The notes under the pieces are model-generated. The model had not been told where the DNA came from. It saw only the letters and a list, made by a program, of their open reading frames with translations, and searched no databases. 64,000 bases of DNA from Liolophura sinensis (lineage: Eukaryota; Mollusca; Polyplacophora; Chitonida; Chitonidae). Location of the stretch: positions 28,860,484-28,924,483 of the forward strand of contig NC_088307.1 of NCBI RefSeq assembly GCF_032854445.1, in the 5' to 3' direction. Shown one piece after another: positions 46,388-55,858 of this stretch. The first letter of the stretch is position 1. Each line of letters starts with the position of its first letter. The position numbers and the translations under genes are program-made.

Positions 46388-46735
46388 TAGATATTCATTG
46401 CTCAGCCTTTGGCAACTGTTCGTCTCTGAGAGTGGTACCAGAATTCATCGCTGTCATCTCATCGTTGCCATCTCTCATTGCTGCCATCCGTCATCTCTCA
46501 GCCTTTCGCGACTGTTCGTTTCTGAGAGTGGTACCAGAATTCATCGCTGTCATCTCATCGTTGCCATCTCTCATTGCTGCCATCCGTCATCTCTCAGCCT
46601 TTGGCGGCTGTTCGTCTCTGAAAGTGGTACCAGAATTTATCGCTGTCATCTCATCTTTGCCATCTCTAATTGCCGCCATCTCTCATTGCTGCCATTGCCG
46701 CCATTGCCGTCATCTCTCAGCCTGTGGAGACTGTT
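46388..46735. repeat. QTRT2: 96-bp tandem repeat containing copies of the QTRT2 stop region
   Basis: Three units with CTCTCAGCCTTTGGCGACTG, GAGTGGTACCAGAATTCATC and GCTGTCATCTCATCGTTGCC. A fourth match, CATCTCTCAGCCTGTGGAGA, is the actual QTRT2 C-terminal coding end at 46,711. The array lies in the QTRT2 3' UTR. Confidence 0.88.
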
Positions 46736-46827
46736 TCTTTATGAGGTGTACAAGGTCATCAAACTTGTCCTCATCAATTGCTTGTCGGATGGTGTGGAAA
46801 AACTCAAAGTAGTGATGAAAATTATGG
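46710..46827 (-). CDS. QTRT2: QTRT2 terminal coding exon 11
   Basis: 118 nt after CTCTTGCAG. It encodes [38 protein letters not shown] and stop. The first His (of HNF) is the fourth zinc ligand in the family. It matches human HNFEHYFGFFHYIREALKSD. Confidence 0.93.
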
Positions 46828-49800
46828 CTGCAAGAGAAAGACGAGAAAGGTTGATTTGTTTGTTTATTTGATTGCAGTTTATGCCATCTCAAGAACATTT
46901 CAATTATATAGGGGCAGCCCGCATTACAATGAGAGGAAATTGCACAGATCAAGCCTGGTGGAAATCCACAACCATCTGCAGGTTGCTGCAGACCTCCCCA
47001 CTAAGGACTGGAGAGGAAACCAGCATGGACTACGCTTGAACTCGCAGGAATCGCATTATACATCATATGGATACTGAACAAAAATGTGAAACCAATCATG
47101 GGTTATTTCCAAACCTTTTTTGCCATTATTTGCCATGAGTTTGGGTTAGGAGTGATGCCATGAAGAGTTTTTCATTTTTTGCAAGCAATAGTTAAACAAC
47201 TGGGACTGTAATAATTAAATTCCAGTTGATATAATGATAATATATTGTGAAATTTAATCTTTCTGCCCCCAGCCCCAATTTCCCAAAATATTGCAGCCGG
47301 AAACAAGAAATTAAGTCGTTGGCATTAGCACTCTGTATAATTACATGTAACAGCTTACATCATGAGAAGAACGCTGGCCAGCAGTTCTGAGGTGTTGAGT
47401 AGATGATGGATGTACGACCGAGCGAATGTCTGACAACAGTAACACTGACAGGAAGGTAACACAGGTCTCGAGTCCTCGCGGTACCTGACAAACAGACAAC
47501 AGTAACACTGACAGGAGGGTAGCACAGGTCTCAAGTCCTCACAGTACCTGACAAACAGACAACAGTAACACTGACAGGAGGGTAACACAGGTCTCACGGT
47601 ACCTAACAAACAGACAACAGTAACGCTGGCAGGAGGCTAGCACAGGTCTCAAGTCCTCACGGTACCTGACAAACAGACAACAGTAACGCTGACAGGAGGG
47701 TAAGACATGTCCCAAGTCCTCACAGTACCTGACAAATAGACAACAGTAACACTGACAGGAGGGTAATACACAGGGCAGCCCTTATGTACTTGGCCAATCA
47801 CTGGTGCTGAAAGCGTCATAAAACCTATTAGCTCTCGATTGTCAGTGTGGTTTCTTATAGTGGATAGACAGATATCAGAGCATTAAATTGGATTTTGTGA
47901 TTAGTTTATGTGTTAAACTGGTGCAATGTTTGAACCAGACATTTATCAACAGGGAACTGAGATCGGCTGCCTGTGTCACAATGAGTACATGTTGGGCAGG
48001 ATCCCGCAGTAACTTGTCAGGGCAAGCTGGTAAGAAAACGATCTCGGGAGAGTCATTGTTTGAAGAGAAATATTGTGACTTTGCATCATTTTTCCTGAGC
48101 AAAGTCAGATTTATTAAGAAAATCTGAATGAAAGGGTCTGTTATCACTCAGAAGGTCCTGTGGCGTTTGGTAAATCCCCTGAACTCAGTACAGTCAGCTA
48201 GGCCTGATGCTTACACCCATACAGTTGAGGACTTCTAAAACACACTGCTTGTGTCCATGAAGATCTCTTTGACTGAGTACCAAACCAAACATCGGCCCTT
48301 TGAGCACGGAACAGAGCTGATACTCTCTGGTTGGGTATCAGGCGTTTTTGTTTGTATTTTCTCATTGTCATATTGTTGAATACCGATGGTATGGGAGAGC
48401 TCCTAGGTTTTGTGACGTCACTCTAATATCTATAACATGGCAAATGGTGTCACCAAATAAGTGGTTAGATGCTGACTTTGCTATTATTTTGTTGATAGAC
48501 AGTGTAGAATTTTTAAATATTTTTAGAACATTTCAGGAATACTGCTTTATTAATTCAGCTTTAGTGGCTGACTTTATGTTCACTTGAACAGACTTGCTAA
48601 GCACTCACCTTTTATCTTTAAGGTCAATTGTAAAACTTGCCCCAGTATATGTTTTTTCCTTGGTTTCCTCAGTTATCTCCCCTGATATGCCATGGCAGCT
48701 CTTGCTACTGCTGAACTTAAAATCAAACACTTGGGCTTCCCCTCTTTCGGTGACAATGTAGGGATACTTTTGCTATGTTAAGAAAATCTTAAACTTGTCA
48801 GGCTGTTGTATTTAAATGCATTAATGACTACACACCACAATGAATGGTAACCATGAATGAATGGTAAAAGAAGAACAAAGCTTTCACTCAAGTCAAACTT
48901 TTCCACTAAAAGTAGAGTTGAAGTTTATTTGGATTACTTTGTTGGTATCGGCAAAATGCTGTACTAAATAATAACTGACCTTCTACAATAGCAATCAATG
49001 TAGTGGAGGAAACCAGTTCCTATATGCAGATTAAACCACTGACCTTTGGCAAGTAACTGACAAACTTTTTCACTTGTAACAGAGATTTCACCAACTGTGC
49101 ATGCTCAAAACAACCACCATAATGGTGGAAGACAAGTGTCTGTGATATCCAGAGGACTTCGCGAAAGACCGCCTAAAAATCCCCTCAACCTGCGCTGTCA
49201 CTTTTACCCGTTGCCAAGCAACTAGAGCAGTACAGGCAGGAGAGTTTAGAAAATTCCCATCACCAAGGCGTCTGTTCTGGAATATCTGCGGAGGGATATA
49301 AGCTGTCCAGTAAGTCAACCAACAGCGCGAACACAGAAGAAATGTGTGTACCGTATGATATCCTCTGAACTTCATGCAAGACCACCCCAATGGCCTTCGT
49401 CATCGTTGTGGACACAGAGCAACAGTATGTATAGTGACTATCATGGCATATGCATAGAAGGATATGAGCTGTCAAGGATGTCCACCCCACAGCTGACCGC
49501 TGACAAGACGTGGTCAGGTCTCCAGCCACCCTGCATTAGGCGAGGACGGTCAGCAGATAATGCAGACTGAAAGCAGATTGGGAGAAGCACATGTTTGTAC
49601 GTGTATAGATACATGGGAGGAGCACTCCAGGTTTAGCCACTGACTGCTACTGGCGGGTACCCAAGAAATCTCCTGAATTAAAGCCGTGGCCAAGGAAACA
49701 AGACGTGAAAAATGCGACCTCAATGGTCAACGCCCAGACCATCACAACGAGTCAGTGGTTTAACTATCGGAGCCACCAAGGTGGGATTCCTTCTGATTCA

Positions 49801-52800
49801 TCTCCAAAATCAAATATATCTGATGGAAAAATCACAGATGTTCCAAAACTCACATCATGTCAAGATTTTATAATAAAAACAATGCAATAATCTAAATCTG
49901 ATATTCTACTTTCTAAACAAACTTACCACAGTTTTCTGCAAAATATCTTTGATCTCATCAAATTCAAAATCTTCTGTTTTTGGTCCAAAATTCTGAAACC
50001 CTTCAATAGAAAACCCTGGAATGAACAAAAAAAGTTATATTCTGTTTACACTCTCAAATGTTAAAGTGCAAGTAAGAAGGAGAAAGAGAGAGAGAGGAGA
50101 GATAGATAGAGATGGGGAGAGAGAGGGAGACAGACAGACAGAGGGAGACAGGTACAGAGAGACAGACAGAGAGATAGATGGAGGCAGACAGAGACAGGGA
50201 GAGAGGTGGGGAGACAGACGAACATGCAACTCCACATTCCCATAATAATCCTATACCTTACCTTGAACTGGCCTAGAAGAAGTTTCCTTTGCTGATTTCA
50301 GTCTTTCCTCTATCTGATACCCCCCTTCTATAGCTCCAAATATGGCAGCATTTTTCAACACCTGTAAATAGAAATCTAACAAGCCTGAGTACAATAATCT
50401 GACAGGAGATATGACTTGTAATCAGCACTTAGGTGTATAACCTACATGTACCAGTTTTATAACAAATATATTTGTCCCTTAGCTTAGACCTCTTTTCCAC
50501 TTGAGACTACTAGCTCCCCAGCAGTAAGGTCACCAGTTCAAATCCAGTTCTGGCTGGCTAAGCTGCTGCATTGTTCAGGCACTTTGTCAGGTGTCAGTCC
50601 ATTTGTTTCTTCATTGCTCATCTCATTTTCCTTCAGCTATAAACCTGACATTCATTCAATTACTGACGCATTCTTGAATGACATCATTCATATTTATAAG
50701 CAAATATAAATCCATAATATTTTCTTCTAAAATAATTTCTGCATGAAATTTCATCCATTAAATTAAGTACTTTAGTACTCAGTAATCAACAGAGGAGTTT
50801 CCAGTTCAAGCTCTTTTGTCAGTGAAGGTAAAAACAGTCCTACTGTATCATGTGACTTGTCCGAAATGTTAGGCAACCTTCACTGATATTTGTCTACAGA
50901 TCACCTGTCTCTTCGTGTTTCTCAAGCACAAATGAAAACTCTGTATTACGTGAACTTCTGAAGCTCACAGTCTTTCGGTTCCTGTATTTTAGTCATCATT
51001 GGCTCACTCTAAGTAGCTTTTTGTGAAACTTTTTCAGATGCCCATGTTACAGTAAATGTGAACAAATATAGTTGCCTAACATTTTTGACACGTCACATGA
51101 TACAGTAGGATGTTTTTTACTTTTAGAGATAAAAGAGTTTAAACTCGAAACCCCTCGTACTGACTACAAATTTATTTATTTATTTGATTGGTGTTTTATG
51201 CCGTACTCAAGAACATTTCACTTATATGACGGCGGACAGCATTATGATGGCAGTCAACCTGAACTGACTACAAATGTTTTAAGTCAGAAATAGAGGAAAA
51301 CATCACTGTTAAGCCATATGTCTGTTTTCTGGAATTCATTTTCCTTGGGAACCCTTTTCATATGTATGACAAAATGCTCTTTGAAAATACCTAATGGCAT
51401 CAGCTGGACTTCTTCTAAAAAGATCAACTTCAAACTCTCAGAAATCAACATCATATCTCTTAAACAAACAGGTTTTCAGAACTATATTAGTCCTGCACTT
51501 AAGTTTTAATTTTAGTCTGACTTGTAATATTTGTTTGTTTGAGATTATAATATAACTGTAGAAACAGACAAAGTTGTAACTTCTATTTTCTTTTTTTAAC
51601 TTATTTTCTTTTAACAGTATCCTCTAGAGTATGGCGTAAAACCCAAATAAAAAAACAAAACAATAAAATTGATAAATTTTAACAGTAAATAATCCTTTTC
51701 ATCAAACCTCTGAATTCTGATGTCTCTCCAAACACTCGTCCAAAAAACTGAGAGTCCTGTGGATGGACTTCTGCAGCCTTTTCCTGGTCGTGGTTTTTCC
51801 CACGTCTCCGTCTGACAAAGCCTGGTAAACATCTGGCTGAAAAGCTTCCTGTATGTCCATGTAGTGATCAGGCTCCAGCTGAAAATAGATCCAAACTCAA
51901 ATCACTGATTTTCTCCAGGTTTTTCAAAACACAAAATTCACATTTTCAATTCACAACGTACATACATACATTATGTGCCTATGTCATTCTCAATCTAAAG
52001 GTTTTTTCAGGCCCCAAAACAAAAACTCCTTATTTTTCAGGTTTTTCATGTCTGGGACAATTTTCTTCGAGTTGTGTGAGCCCTGTGAAATGTAAGTCTA
52101 TGTACAATATCATGATTAAGATGAGTTCCATATAATTTTTCACTTCTTGGATGCTTTGAAATCAAATTCAATTCCATATACTTTTCGACTGTTATACTTG
52201 ATGGAATCGACATTATTTTCCCATCATGCTTTGCAGCTGGACTGATGTTTAACGACACCACCAAGTATGGTATACCTCAAGTGAGTGATTTCTTACCCTG
52301 TGCATAATCCTGGCTGCTAGTATAAGTGAAATATTCTTGAGCATGGCATAAAACTCCACTGAAATAAATATTACACCCTACCCTGTATTTTCCCCCTTTT
52401 GCCCACACCGCCACACTCTGTTTATCGTTATACCCCTGGGGCAGTTCCATGGCTGAGTCTTGTATGGTTGAGAAAACAATGGATCCCTGAAACAGAAGAA
52501 AACAACAACATCAGCTGCAAATCATTTGTTTTCACGAACAAATCTCACCAGGCTGATCAGACAACTGTGCTTGACTTTCTCCACTCATAAAAGTGACCTC
52601 CCATCAAGAAATCTGTGCTCATACCTCAACCTGGTTTCTCCAACCATAAAAGTGACCTCCCATCAAGAAATCTGTGCTCATACCTCAACCTGGTTTTCTC
52701 CAACCATAAAAGTGACCTCCCATCAAGAAATCTGTGCTCATACCTCAACCTGGTTTCTCCAACCATAAAAGTGACCTCCCATCAAGAAATCTGTGCTCAT

Positions 52801-55800
52801 ACCTCAACCTGGTTTCTCCAACCATAAAAGTTACCTCCCATCAAGAAATCTGTGCTCATACCTCAACCTGGTTTCTCCAACCATAAAACCATTTAAATAT
52901 GTTTGAATCAGTCATTCAACCTCAATCAACACAACACAACAAATAGACTTTCTACAGGCTGCATCATTACAAAGTCGTGTTCACAAGACTTTTTGATTTA
53001 GGTACCATACTTGAATTTACTGAATAATGACAAATCACAGCATGTTCAGAATGGGGCTGCAGATGAGAAAAGGAGCTTGATTACTTTCACATGTATGTGT
53101 ATTCATTATTTTCACATGTGTGTGTATTCATTATTTTCACATGTATGTGTATTCATTATTTTCACGTGTATGTGTATTCATTATTTTTACTTGTATTTGT
53201 ATTCATTATTTTCACATGTATGTGTATTCATTTTTTCACATGTATGTGTATTCATTATTTTCACATGTATGTTTATTCATTATTTTTACTTGTATTTGTA
53301 TTCATTCTTTTCACGTGTATGTGTATTCATTTTTTCACATACAGGTGTATTCATTATTTCTACTTGTATTTGTATTCATTATTTTCACATGTATGTGTAT
53401 TCATTATTTTCACATGTATGTGTATTCATTTTTTCACACGTATGTGTATTCATTATTTCTACTTGTATTTGTATTCATTATTTTCACATGTATGTGTATT
53501 CATTTTTTCACACGTATGTGTATTCATTATTATCATATGTATGTGTATTCATTTTTTGACATGTATGTGTATTCATTATTTCTACTTGTATTTGTATTCA
53601 TTATTTTCACATGTATGTGTAGGCCTATTCATTTTTTCACATGTACGTGCATTCATTATTTTTACATGTATGTGTATTCATTATTTCTACTTGTATTTGT
53701 ATTCATTATTTTCACATGTATGTGTATTCATTTTTTCACATATATGTGTATTCATTATTTTACTTCAGATATCAACTCACATGCATCGCAGTGATACCAC
53801 CCAAGCCCTTCTGGAAACCTCTCACAGCTTCATGATGTTCAACCCTGTAAAGCATATAAATTCCAAATAAAATACTAAAAAATAGCTGGTGTTTACAGGA
53901 CACCACCAGGGTTAACACTGTTAAAAATCAACAGTATATGGGAAGGTCTACCAGCAACATTCAGATGGTCGTGAGTTTCCTCCCACCAACTTGCTGGCAG
54001 ATGTGTTACAAGTGAAATGTTCTTGAGTACTGTGTAAAATATCAATAAAATAAATAAATAAAATAAATAAAAATCAACTAAAGGGTCAGTATGTAAGGTG
54101 ACTATGAACTCGTAAGAATGGCTGACATGAAGAATTGAACCTGGGTCTCTTAGCTGTTAAACAGATGCTCTATGCAACCCCTCAGTCATTTATGGATATA
54201 TCAAATACATGTTCATGCCATGTACAAATAAATAGCAAAGAACTTACAGTAAAGGCATTGGCATCTGTACCAATGATGGCATATTTGTCAGCTTCTCCCA
54301 TATGTCGGGGGTGAGATGTGGCACGCTCCCTAACAAACACAACAAAAACAAATAAATACACGTTAACACAGACCGGGGGGGTGGATAGCCTTGCCTTCTC
54401 TCCATGTACATTACGTTATACTGTACAAAAATACACAGAAGAGTAATACATTATGATAAATCTAATTTTATGTGTGTGTGCTTGGGTTTTATGTCGTACT
54501 TAACAATTTTTTCCGTCATATTGTAAGGAGGAGTCATTAGGTGCGTGTACATACACTGTGCTTTCTTGTGTTGCCAAAGTGCTGTCACTGAAGTATCATG
54601 TCAAAGACACCAGACATGACACCCAGTCACATTATTACTGACACCAAGCCAACCAGTCCGGTTTCATTGCTCTAACCTCTCAGTGCTGAGCGCCAAACGA
54701 CGCAGCAAGAAGTACCATTTTTAAAGTAGATGGGTTTGATCACTAGTTTCTCAACTTCAAGGCGGATGCTCTAGCCATTAGGCCATTGAAGCAGTCTTAT
54801 CTACTGTTAGTAAAGAGCATACATGCATGTATTGTAATATATTTATTTATTTATTTGACTGTTCTTAAATACTGAAGGAGTTTTCACTTATACGACAGCA
54901 GTCAGGTTTACGGGTAGAGGAAACAATTATATAATAAACTAAAAGGAAACCATAAGATACTATAAGATATACATGTACTATAGCATAGACAGTATTGGTT
55001 TGTTTTAAAATCAAATTCTATGATTACTGTAAAATTATGTAATACTCAATAATATATTTCAGTTATACATGTATTTAACTGCAGTCAAGTCTATTACTGG
55101 ACGAAACCAGATCTACATGTAGTTTTGGGGAAACCACTATACATGACTAGTACATGTAACATGACTAGGTTCCTTGTATAACCCTCTAATTGCAGTTCAG
55201 TCTGAGGGGGAAACCAGGCTTAGTTATGAGGAAACCACCATCCATTACTAGCTTCCTTGTATAACCCTTTAATTGCAGTTCAGCCTGAGAGGGAAACCAG
55301 GCTTAGTTATGAGGAAACTACCATTCATTACTAGCCTACTGGTAATAGCTCTCTGATTGCAGTTCAGTCTGAGGGGGATACCAGACTTAGTTATGAGAAA
55401 ACCACCATACATTATCACATTCCTGGTAAAACCAACTAATTGTAGTTCAAACAGAGGGGAAAACCAGATATAGTAGTGGGAAAACACCTCATGGAAGCTA
55501 GCTAGATCATAGTTCCTCCACACCAATCAAGCTGGATTTGACAGCCATATTTAAGTCAACAGTTGGCATTATTCAGGCACCGAGGCAACATGAGTGCGGT
55601 AAATAACAGATGTTCAATTTCTATAAGTTATGGAGAGCTGACTGAGTTATATGGTCACTTTGTTGACTGACCGCTTATAATTACAAGCGTGGTCGCTGAG
55701 CGCTGTCAGTGACCACGCTTGACCAAGCTGATCTTACCTCCTCGGGTGTAGAGAGAACAAACTGGGGTTTCCACCACCTTGTCTGGGTGTCGGGCAAACT

Positions 55801-55858
55801 CCACCATCGCCCCGCGTCGGCAACCGCTTGCATGTGCGGCTCTGATCACAAACTTCAT
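46710..55858 (-). CDS. QTRT2: QTRT2, queuine tRNA-ribosyltransferase accessory subunit 2 (11 coding exons)
   Basis: Exons in coding order are 55858-55738, 54329-54248, 53844-53781, 52486-52382, 51878-51708, 50361-50262, 50015-49927, 49566-49466, 48767-48609, 47484-47359 and 46827-46710. They total 1,236 nt, or 411 aa; human QTRT2 is 415. QTRT2 pairs with catalytic QTRT1 to exchange guanine-34 for queuine in GUN-anticodon tRNAs and associates with the mitochondrial outer surface. Diagnostic matches are [77 protein letters not shown] and the zinc site CQCYCC...[18 protein letters not shown]...[10 protein letters not shown]. The catalytic Asp pair of QTRT1 is not expected in this subunit. All introns are GT-AG except intron 8, which looks U12-type. 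The gene is head-to-head with NELFE and convergent with HMCES. Confidence 0.94.
46857..47062 (-). mobile_element. SINE family 1 in QTRT2 intron 10
   Basis: Minus-strand orientation, the same as QTRT2. Contains TTATGCCATCTCAAGAACAT, GGTTGCTGCAGACCTCCCC and GAGAGGAAACCAGCATGG up to the B-box side. Confidence 0.7.
47359..47484 (-). CDS. QTRT2: QTRT2 coding exon 10 (zinc-binding CxCxxC exon)
   Basis: 126 nt, TGTTTGTCAG acceptor and GTAAGC donor. It encodes [40 protein letters not shown] and M. The Cys residues of CQCYCC are the family zinc ligands. The first part of this exon and its acceptor recur upstream as 63-bp tandem copies. Confidence 0.92.
47428..47772. repeat. QTRT2: 63-bp tandem repeat of the QTRT2 exon 10 acceptor and zinc motif
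   Basis: About six units with anchors (GACAACAGTAAC) at about 47432, 47495, 47558, 47613, 47676 and 47739. One interval is 55 bp, the others 63. Each unit holds a pyrimidine tract, an AG acceptor and [12 protein letters not shown] on the minus strand. Confidence 0.9.
48609..48767 (-). CDS. QTRT2: QTRT2 coding exon 9
   Basis: 159 nt encoding [20 protein letters not shown] and, at the end, [12 protein letters not shown], matching human FFPYQVTERGCALTFSFDY...ITSFEINLKEK. Donor GTGAGT. The 5' boundary is set by frame: only starting at the G at 48,767 joins exon 8 in frame. Confidence 0.82.
48768..49465 (-). other. QTRT2: QTRT2 intron 8, probable U12-type intron
   Basis: On the minus strand it opens ATATCCTTCT (U12 5' splice consensus ATATCCTTT). 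It carries TTTTCTTAAC (48777-48786; U12 branch consensus TTCCTTAAC) about 10 nt before the end CAAAA. Contains a ghost copy of exon 8. Confidence 0.65.
49268..49345 (-). pseudogene. Degenerate duplicate of the QTRT2 exon 8 3' end
   Basis: The minus strand reads [12 protein letters not shown], followed by ATATCCCTCC at the donor position. Aligned with exon 8 ([21 protein letters not shown]) the last 37 nt are roughly 70% identical. It lacks the [12 protein letters not shown] part and has no good donor, so it is probably a dead exon. Confidence 0.5.
49466..49566 (-). CDS. QTRT2: QTRT2 coding exon 8, followed by a U12-type donor
   Basis: 101 nt after CTTTCAG. It encodes [20 protein letters not shown] and [13 protein letters not shown], matching human [27 protein letters not shown]. 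No GT lies at the end of homology; instead the intron opens ATATCCTTCT, the minor-spliceosome 5' splice consensus. Confidence 0.82.
49927..50015 (-). CDS. QTRT2: QTRT2 coding exon 7
   Basis: 89 nt, TTCCAG acceptor and GTAAGT donor. It encodes [20 protein letters not shown] and [10 protein letters not shown], equivalent to human GGFLLDGFQGNPTTLEARL. Confidence 0.9.
50072..50218. repeat. Purine-strand GA/GACA microsatellite in QTRT2 intron 6
   Basis: About 145 bp almost purely A/G on the plus strand (GAGAGAGAGAGG, GACAGACAGACAGAGGGAGA). It abuts QTRT2 exon 6 and is a polypyrimidine stretch in the QTRT2 pre-mRNA. Confidence 0.92.
50262..50361 (-). CDS. QTRT2: QTRT2 coding exon 6
   Basis: 100 nt, TTTACAG acceptor and GTAAGG donor. 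It encodes [20 protein letters not shown] and [13 protein letters not shown], matching human [20 protein letters not shown]. Confidence 0.94.
51168..51262 (-). mobile_element. SINE family 1, tail fragment in QTRT2 intron 5
   Basis: Well-conserved tail: TTATTTGATTGGTGTTTTAT, CCGTACTCAAGAACATTTCA and ATGACGGCGGACAGCATTAT. A second tail scrap (GAGTATGGCGTAAAACCC) lies at 51,625-51,650. Confidence 0.7.
51708..51878 (-). CDS. QTRT2: QTRT2 coding exon 5
   Basis: 171 nt, phase 0 to 0, ATTTTCAG acceptor and GTTTGA donor. It encodes [30 protein letters not shown] and [17 protein letters not shown]. It is the strongest single family match (human [21 protein letters not shown]). Confidence 0.94.
52312..52375 (+). 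mobile_element. SINE family 1, tail scrap adjacent to QTRT2 exon 4
   Basis: TATAAGTGAAATATTCTTGA and CATGGCATAAAACTCCACTG end a few bases from the exon 4 splice donor at 52,381. Confidence 0.55.
52382..52486 (-). CDS. QTRT2: QTRT2 coding exon 4
   Basis: 105 nt, phase 0 to 0, TTTCAG acceptor and GTAGGG donor. It encodes [20 protein letters not shown] and [15 protein letters not shown], matching human PAGYVTNKSVSVWSVAGR. Confidence 0.9.
52585..52890. repeat. 59-bp minisatellite, 5 copies, QTRT2 intron 3
   Basis: Units contain CCATAAAAGTGACCTCCCAT and TCATACCTCAACCTGGTTTC. Almost identical. Confidence 0.9.
53083..53768. repeat. 24/25-bp minisatellite, about 28 copies, QTRT2 intron 3
   Basis: Core TTTTCACATGTATGTGTATT plus CATTA. 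Variants (TTTTTCACATG, TTTCTACTTGTATTTG) alternate in blocks. It abuts QTRT2 exon 3. Plus-strand ORFs of 182-259 codons are artefacts. Confidence 0.9.
53781..53844 (-). CDS. QTRT2: QTRT2 coding exon 3
   Basis: 64 nt, TTTACAG acceptor and GTGAGT donor. It encodes [20 protein letters not shown] plus MH, matching human LAEHHEVLTEYKEGVGKFIG. It lies right at the edge of a 24/25-bp minisatellite. Confidence 0.9.
53937..54078 (+). mobile_element. SINE family 1, 3' part in QTRT2 intron 2
   Basis: GGGAAGGTCTACCAGCAACA, TTTCCTCCCACCAACTTGC and CAAGTGAAATGTTCTTGAGT, followed by an AAAT-rich tail. Confidence 0.7.
54248..54329 (-). CDS. QTRT2: QTRT2 coding exon 2
   Basis: 82 nt, TTGTTAG acceptor and GTAAGT donor. 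It encodes [20 protein letters not shown] and VQMPMPL, aligning with human GSAPHLTHHTLHNIHGVPAM. Confidence 0.9.
54475..54795 (-). mobile_element. SINE family 2, minus-oriented, QTRT2 intron 1
   Basis: The tRNA head reads inward from 54,795 (fwd CTCTAGCCATTAGGCCATTG). The tail is TTGGGTTTTATGTCGTACTT near 54,485. It contains the shared body motif CTAACCTCTCAGTGCTG. Confidence 0.75.
54840..54925 (-). mobile_element. SINE family 1, diverged tail
   Basis: TTATTTATTTATTTGACTG and TTTTCACTTATACGACAGCA, in QTRT2 intron 1 just next to a family 2 SINE. Confidence 0.55.
55110..55490. repeat. About 83-bp tandem repeat, 4 copies, QTRT2 intron 1
   Basis: Units contain TATAACCCTCTAATTGCAGT, TCAGTCTGAGGGGGAAACCA and TTAGTTATGAGGAAACCACC, moderately diverged. 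Confidence 0.85.
55684..55721 (-). other. QTRT2: Perfect hairpin just inside QTRT2 intron 1
   Basis: CAAGCGTGGTC (55684-55694) and GACCACGCTTG (55711-55721) are exact complements. With the inner CTGA/TCAG and one wobble they give a 16-bp stem and a 6-nt loop, about 9 nt past the 5' splice site in the pre-mRNA. Confidence 0.75.
55738..55858 (-). CDS. QTRT2: QTRT2 coding exon 1
   Basis: 121 nt encoding [20 protein letters not shown] and then PVCSLYTRG, matching human MKLSLTKVVNGCRLG...CLLYTKTG. An in-frame upstream ATG at 55,957 exists. The 55,858 start is preferred because it matches the family N-terminus. Donor GTAAGA. Confidence 0.9.

Follow-up and report, generated by a model that had tools for sequence, protein, structure and literature searches.

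Intron 8 of QTRT2, the gene of a tRNA-modifying enzyme, very probably belongs to the A-type (AT-AN) class of minor, U12-type introns and is cut after a terminal AA. It lies on the minus strand of the window, the whole 64-kb stretch of DNA analysed, in a gene of 11 exons whose nine other introns all have GT-AG termini. The initial annotation had proposed a candidate AT-AA U12 intron in this gene, and its motifs, frame and coordinates are borne out; the span given for it, 48768-49566, does contain the element but covers exon 8 plus intron 8, the intron itself running from 49465 to 48768. The features are as follows.

46710..55858, minus strand: QTRT2 coding span, 11 exons, CDS 1,236 nt, 411 aa, assembled from sequence
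55858-55738, 54329-54248, 53844-53781, 52486-52382, minus strand: QTRT2 exons 1-4
51878-51708, 50361-50262, 50015-49927, 49566-49466, minus strand: QTRT2 exons 5-8
48767-48609, 47484-47359, 46827-46710, minus strand: QTRT2 exons 9-11
49466..49566, minus strand: exon 8, 101 nt, ending ...GTGGACATCCTTGACAGCTC and leaving phase 2
48768..49465, minus strand: intron 8 (698 nt), predicted from motifs, frame and pairing to be a minor (U12) A-type intron, termini AT-AA
49456..49465, minus strand: putative U12 5' splice site ATATCCTTCT of intron 8, from matrix score and U6atac pairing
49278..49346, minus strand: decayed copy of the exon 8 end and U12 donor inside intron 8, GACAGCTTATATCCCTCC
48777..48786, minus strand: putative U12 branch site TTTTCTTAAC of intron 8, from matrix score and pairing with the genome's own U12
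48768..48769, minus strand: 3' terminal AA of intron 8, read directly from the sequence
48609..48767, minus strand: exon 9, 159 nt, starting GTATCCCTACATTGTCACCGAAAGAGG (10-residue translation)

The encoded protein matched PF01702 with 254.8 bits, and its best PDB chain was 7nq4_B, "accessory subunit 2" (335 bits), the chains of that name scoring 330-335 bits. In the printed alignments with four accessory-subunit-2 sequences, the exon 8/9 junction was ungapped from DRPRL to VFDF; furthermore, the spacing between GCDMFD and GSA was equal in QTRT2 and in the catalytic subunit 1, represented by one sequence in the alignment. Ending the intron at AA keeps the frame and gives both the CDS of 1,236 nt and the 15-residue junction product described initially. 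Elsewhere in the gene, the donor of exon 5 (51698-51707) is a weak-looking GTTTGATGAA.

The last bases of exon 8 are GACAGCTC, and they are followed directly by the U12 donor reported in the initial annotation, which carries the extended motif [AG]TATCCTT of U12-type introns. Position +5 of this donor is C, not the G that characterizes the U2-type AT-AC form (PMC2831892). The branch site, located earlier at about 10 nt from the junction, was found at 48786-48777; within it, TTCTTAAC follows the consensus TCCTTAAC with one mismatch, a G-U wobble. The two candidate branch adenosines, 48779 or 48778, stand 11 or 10 nt before the intron's final base and 12 or 11 nt before the first base of exon 9, a short interval as in U12-type introns and close to the optimum of 11-13 nt given in PMC3584512. 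The interval from branch site to junction, ATAGCAAAA, contains no polypyrimidine tract; the 3' end of the intron reads ...TTTTCTTAACATAGCAAAA, and an AG ends one base downstream of the terminal AA. With its AT start and AN end the intron would fall in the A-type class, an assignment based on frame, protein continuity and donor register.

Both motifs were scored with a hand-written U12 donor and branch-site matrix, the type of scoring suggested at the outset. On both strands of the 64 kb, three donors and five branch sites scored at least as well as those of intron 8, these being counted; the other strong donors, at +42854 and -41680, are accompanied by no exon recognisable by eye. We put the probability that a donor and a branch site of this quality would both occur by chance where the protein demands them at roughly 1e-8 to 1e-7 for each junction. 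The motifs also pair with the snRNAs of the same genome. The guide GTAAGGAAA of its own U12 (nucleotides 18-26) forms 9/9 pairs with the branch site, one A being bulged, as did only 4 of 20,000 random 9-mers from the window. Its U6atac forms all five pairs with donor positions +4 to +8, while U11 forms 4/5 pairs over positions +5 to +9, against 5/5 at the STX6 control intron described below, because position +9 of the intron 8 donor is C.

We then enumerated the possible junctions between donors 49480-49451 and acceptors 48800-48741, that is 1,800 pairs, those with GT-AG, GC-AG, AT-AC, AT-AG, AT-AA, AT-AT or GT-AC termini being printed in full. Open and in-frame joining was obtained for 320 pairs. 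None of the 1,800 was a GT-AG solution keeping the QTRT2 frame, in line with the earlier remark that no GT is available at the end of exon 8. Among the seven printed terminus types, only the AT-AA pair combined the U12 donor with the whole conserved 12-residue stretch. It had been claimed that AT-AG or AT-AC ends would break the frame; in-frame AT-AC junctions do exist, but none joins the U12 donor to the whole conserved stretch. The in-frame AT-AC pair with the U12 donor and acceptor 48749 deletes YPYIVT, the AT-AT junction with acceptor 48755 deletes YPYI, and AT-AG and AT-AC pairs using the U12 donor lose residues. AT-AG and AT-AC pairs in which exon 8 ends at 49456 bring in extra or altered residues and lack a U12 donor, and two GC-AG pairs keep the frame but drop conserved residues. 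The DNA search with exons 8-10 for a spliced retrocopy recording the junction returned eight matches, all at the QTRT2 locus.

These pairs bear directly on the alternative that the intron is of the ordinary U2 type and its flanking exons end elsewhere, for which we found no argument in favour. Such an intron is very hard to reconcile with the absence of any in-frame GT-AG among the 1,800 pairs, with the loss of conserved residues in both frame-keeping GC-AG pairs, with a 3' end that lacks a pyrimidine tract, or with a C in place of G at donor position +5. Even harder to sustain is an AT-AC intron with exon 8 ending at 49456 and exon 9 starting at 48757, which reads DSSYPSIVTERG. It is open, in frame and of unchanged length (411 aa), with S in place of Y; however, the residue replaced is the Y of PY, kept in four accessory-subunit chains, and the strong ATATCCTT would stay unused inside the exon. 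We consider this junction barely conceivable because its donor ATGCATATGC fits neither spliceosome, resembling neither the U12 consensus nor the AT-AC form of U2 introns, which has G at +5 (PMC2831892), and because its 3' end lies 20-21 nt from the branch site. The protein by itself fits seven registers, since TATCC is present on either side of the exon 8/9 junction. One of them, in which the U12 intron is shifted by one base to TA-AG termini and serine is encoded by TCA instead of TCG, leaves the protein unchanged owing to this repeat, but it would throw the U12 donor out of register, and U at +2 is treated as highly conserved in a mutational study summarised in PMC2831892; we therefore hold it to be highly unlikely. 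Of the seven protein-equivalent registers, register 0 alone sets the donor motif at the cut; the assignment of AA therefore depends on donor register and frame and not on the protein alone.

Two further explanations concern the AG that adjoins the AA. A one-base assembly error, or a rare allele, near the junction could mask an ordinary AT-AG (or AT-AC) U12 intron, AT-AA and AT-AG differing by a single base in frame. This seems improbable: the missing base would fall in AGTAT or CTCATAT, neither of which is a homopolymer, and the genome yielded no further copy of exons 8-10 for comparison. AT-AG termini are moreover described as disfavoured in PMC3584512, although AG is listed among A-type ends in PMC8280824. 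Compatible with the AT-AA reading is an imprecise 3' cut, in which AA would give the productive mRNA and AG a frameshifted, unproductive one, so that QTRT2 output would be lowered or tuned. The AG sits one base from the AA, and 3' splice site choice in U12-type introns is error-prone according to PMC3584512, but the same source's account of AT-AG as disfavoured speaks against such a cut, which we regard as unlikely. A stronger form, in which the AA/AG pair acts as a frame switch with AA leading to active QTRT2 and AG to a decayed mRNA, is a speculative proposal to which we give little credence; if true, the minor spliceosome together with CENATAC would set the AA/AG balance and thereby control tRNA queuosine modification.

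An ancient U12 intron common to QTRT2 and its paralogue QTRT1 was also considered and rejected: a QTRT1 intron lies about six codons further on, after PTRTA, and has a GTAAGT donor.

The machinery for a U12-type cut is encoded in the same genome. Each of the four minor snRNAs gave at least one match above the Rfam cut-off, namely 4/5 matches for U12, 2/2 for U11, 2/2 for U6atac and 1/1 for U4atac, and the CCDC84/CENATAC gene was represented by four exon matches above cut-off within one 7-kb stretch. A region of about 18 kb (C1:65318678-65336263) carries four of the five U12 snRNA matches, of which two score weakly, at 54 and 52 bits. As a control we used STX6, which in human and fly contains a U12 AT-AC intron (PMC2831892). 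The N-terminal family STX6/10/61 (PF09177) had one match in the genome, at C13:17050345-17050563, which was taken to be STX6. It contains the intron GAAACAATTG|ATATCCTTTA ... TTTTCCTTAATTGTTGCAC|GTATTGTTGAAAAG, 867 nt long, AT-AC and in frame, and the following exon begins GTATT. Its position is presumably that of the human U12 intron. An A-type intron of ordinary form is therefore present in this genome. When the whole genome was searched by pattern for short AT-AC U12 introns, with 60-90 nt separating the exact motifs, one match was obtained against 3+3 for the reversed-pattern control; there is no excess, and this search adds nothing in support of the intron 8 reading.

Copies of exon-intron edges were found around several splice sites. 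The decayed copy of the exon 8 end within intron 8 scored 42, compared with a maximum of 31 in 200 shuffles, and a shorter query placed it at 49291-49346 with a score of 40 against a shuffle maximum of 33. Twenty QTRT2 exon edges were tested, and two had copies in the neighbouring intron that exceeded all 200 shuffles: the exon 8 end and the 3' edge of intron 9, the latter with a score of 118 versus 35. The intron 9 copies belong to a 63-bp minisatellite (47432-47770) made of the 3' splice site and the start of exon 10. In this array, five copies of TTTGTYAGGTAC are spaced by 63, 63, 55 and 63, the last being the real 3' splice site; splicing to the closest copy upstream of it would lengthen the protein by 21 in-frame residues and duplicate the CQCYCC motif. 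Likewise, in QTRT1, the partner gene of the same enzyme, an intron contains at C13:2778729-2779969 about 34 copies of a 36-bp unit derived from the end of its exon together with the 5' splice site, CCCAACCAGAACAGCGGTAAGT, with seven stretches fitting the strict pattern of exon end plus GTAAGT. For the 3' edge of intron 8, no copy in a neighbouring intron stood out (score 23, shuffle maximum 32), so mirage-like repeats of this kind do not explain the AA end. Other tandem arrays lie in intron 3 (52576-52888, 59 bp; 53080-53761, 25/74/99 bp) and in intron 1 (55159-55467, 83 bp), and in the shuffle test neither of these introns yielded an outstanding copy of its edges. Dispersed repeats are present as well: one of about 70 bp at 48520-48600, just behind the exon 9 donor, with at least 39 other genome matches at 86-94%, and a short one within intron 8, at about 48980-49130, with at least 40 other matches.

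From motifs, spacing, frame, protein continuity, machinery and control intron, we infer how intron 8 may be excised. U11 and then U6atac would read the donor ATATCCTT, and U12 would pair with TTTTCTTAAC, the bulged A serving as the branch nucleotide. The second step would cut after AA, 10-11 nt downstream of the branch A, and join GACAGCTC to GTATCCC, which would restore the full conserved 12-residue stretch. The AG one base beyond the AA is presumably passed over: AT-AG ends are disfavoured, and this choice would put the downstream codons out of frame. By its class, the intron would presumably depend on CENATAC. Gene prediction with standard tools would probably overlook this junction and yield a wrong QTRT2 model. 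Intron 8 adds a well-supported AT-AA example in which frame and protein continuity leave room for no canonical junction at the U12 donor. Since AA has to win over an AG one base downstream, it also offers a clean natural case for testing how the minor spliceosome chooses 3' ends. Our literature search returned no paper on QTRTD1 with U12 or on QTRT2 with a minor intron.

Several known systems resemble what is described here. AT-AA is reported as the commonest non-canonical minor terminus in animals and in plants alike, in a survey in which molluscs are enriched in minor introns (PMC10639083); this agrees with the initial statement that non-canonical U12 3' ends are known but rare. The termini are identical to those of intron 8, but that survey counts introns conserved between species, whereas QTRT2 intron 8 was read in one genome. 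AT-AN introns are a recognised CENATAC-dependent subtype with AA and AG among the listed A-type ends, and CENATAC depletion affected 92% of A-type introns (PMC8280824). Intron 8 shares with them the AT start, the U12 donor, the branch site and the AA end; the gene and species differ, and for CENATAC it is the presence of the CCDC84 gene that was read here. Since AT-AA is documented in animals and AT-AN is a recognised subtype, intron 8 would be a sound further instance of an established type. The copies of exon-intron edges found in two QTRT2 introns (8 and 9) and in a QTRT1 intron recall the amphioxus 'mirage' minisatellites, which are likewise built from such edges (PMC3087553, PMC3902484). 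A search for the GFP family, expected to give matches in a lancelet, had none in this genome and none in 14 controls either, which makes it a weak test of a lancelet origin. Within the same genome, the STX6 control intron has the same donor core as QTRT2 intron 8, a similar branch site and, as read from the sequence, a branch-to-end spacing within one nucleotide; the STX6 intron, however, ends in AC and QTRT2 intron 8 in AA.
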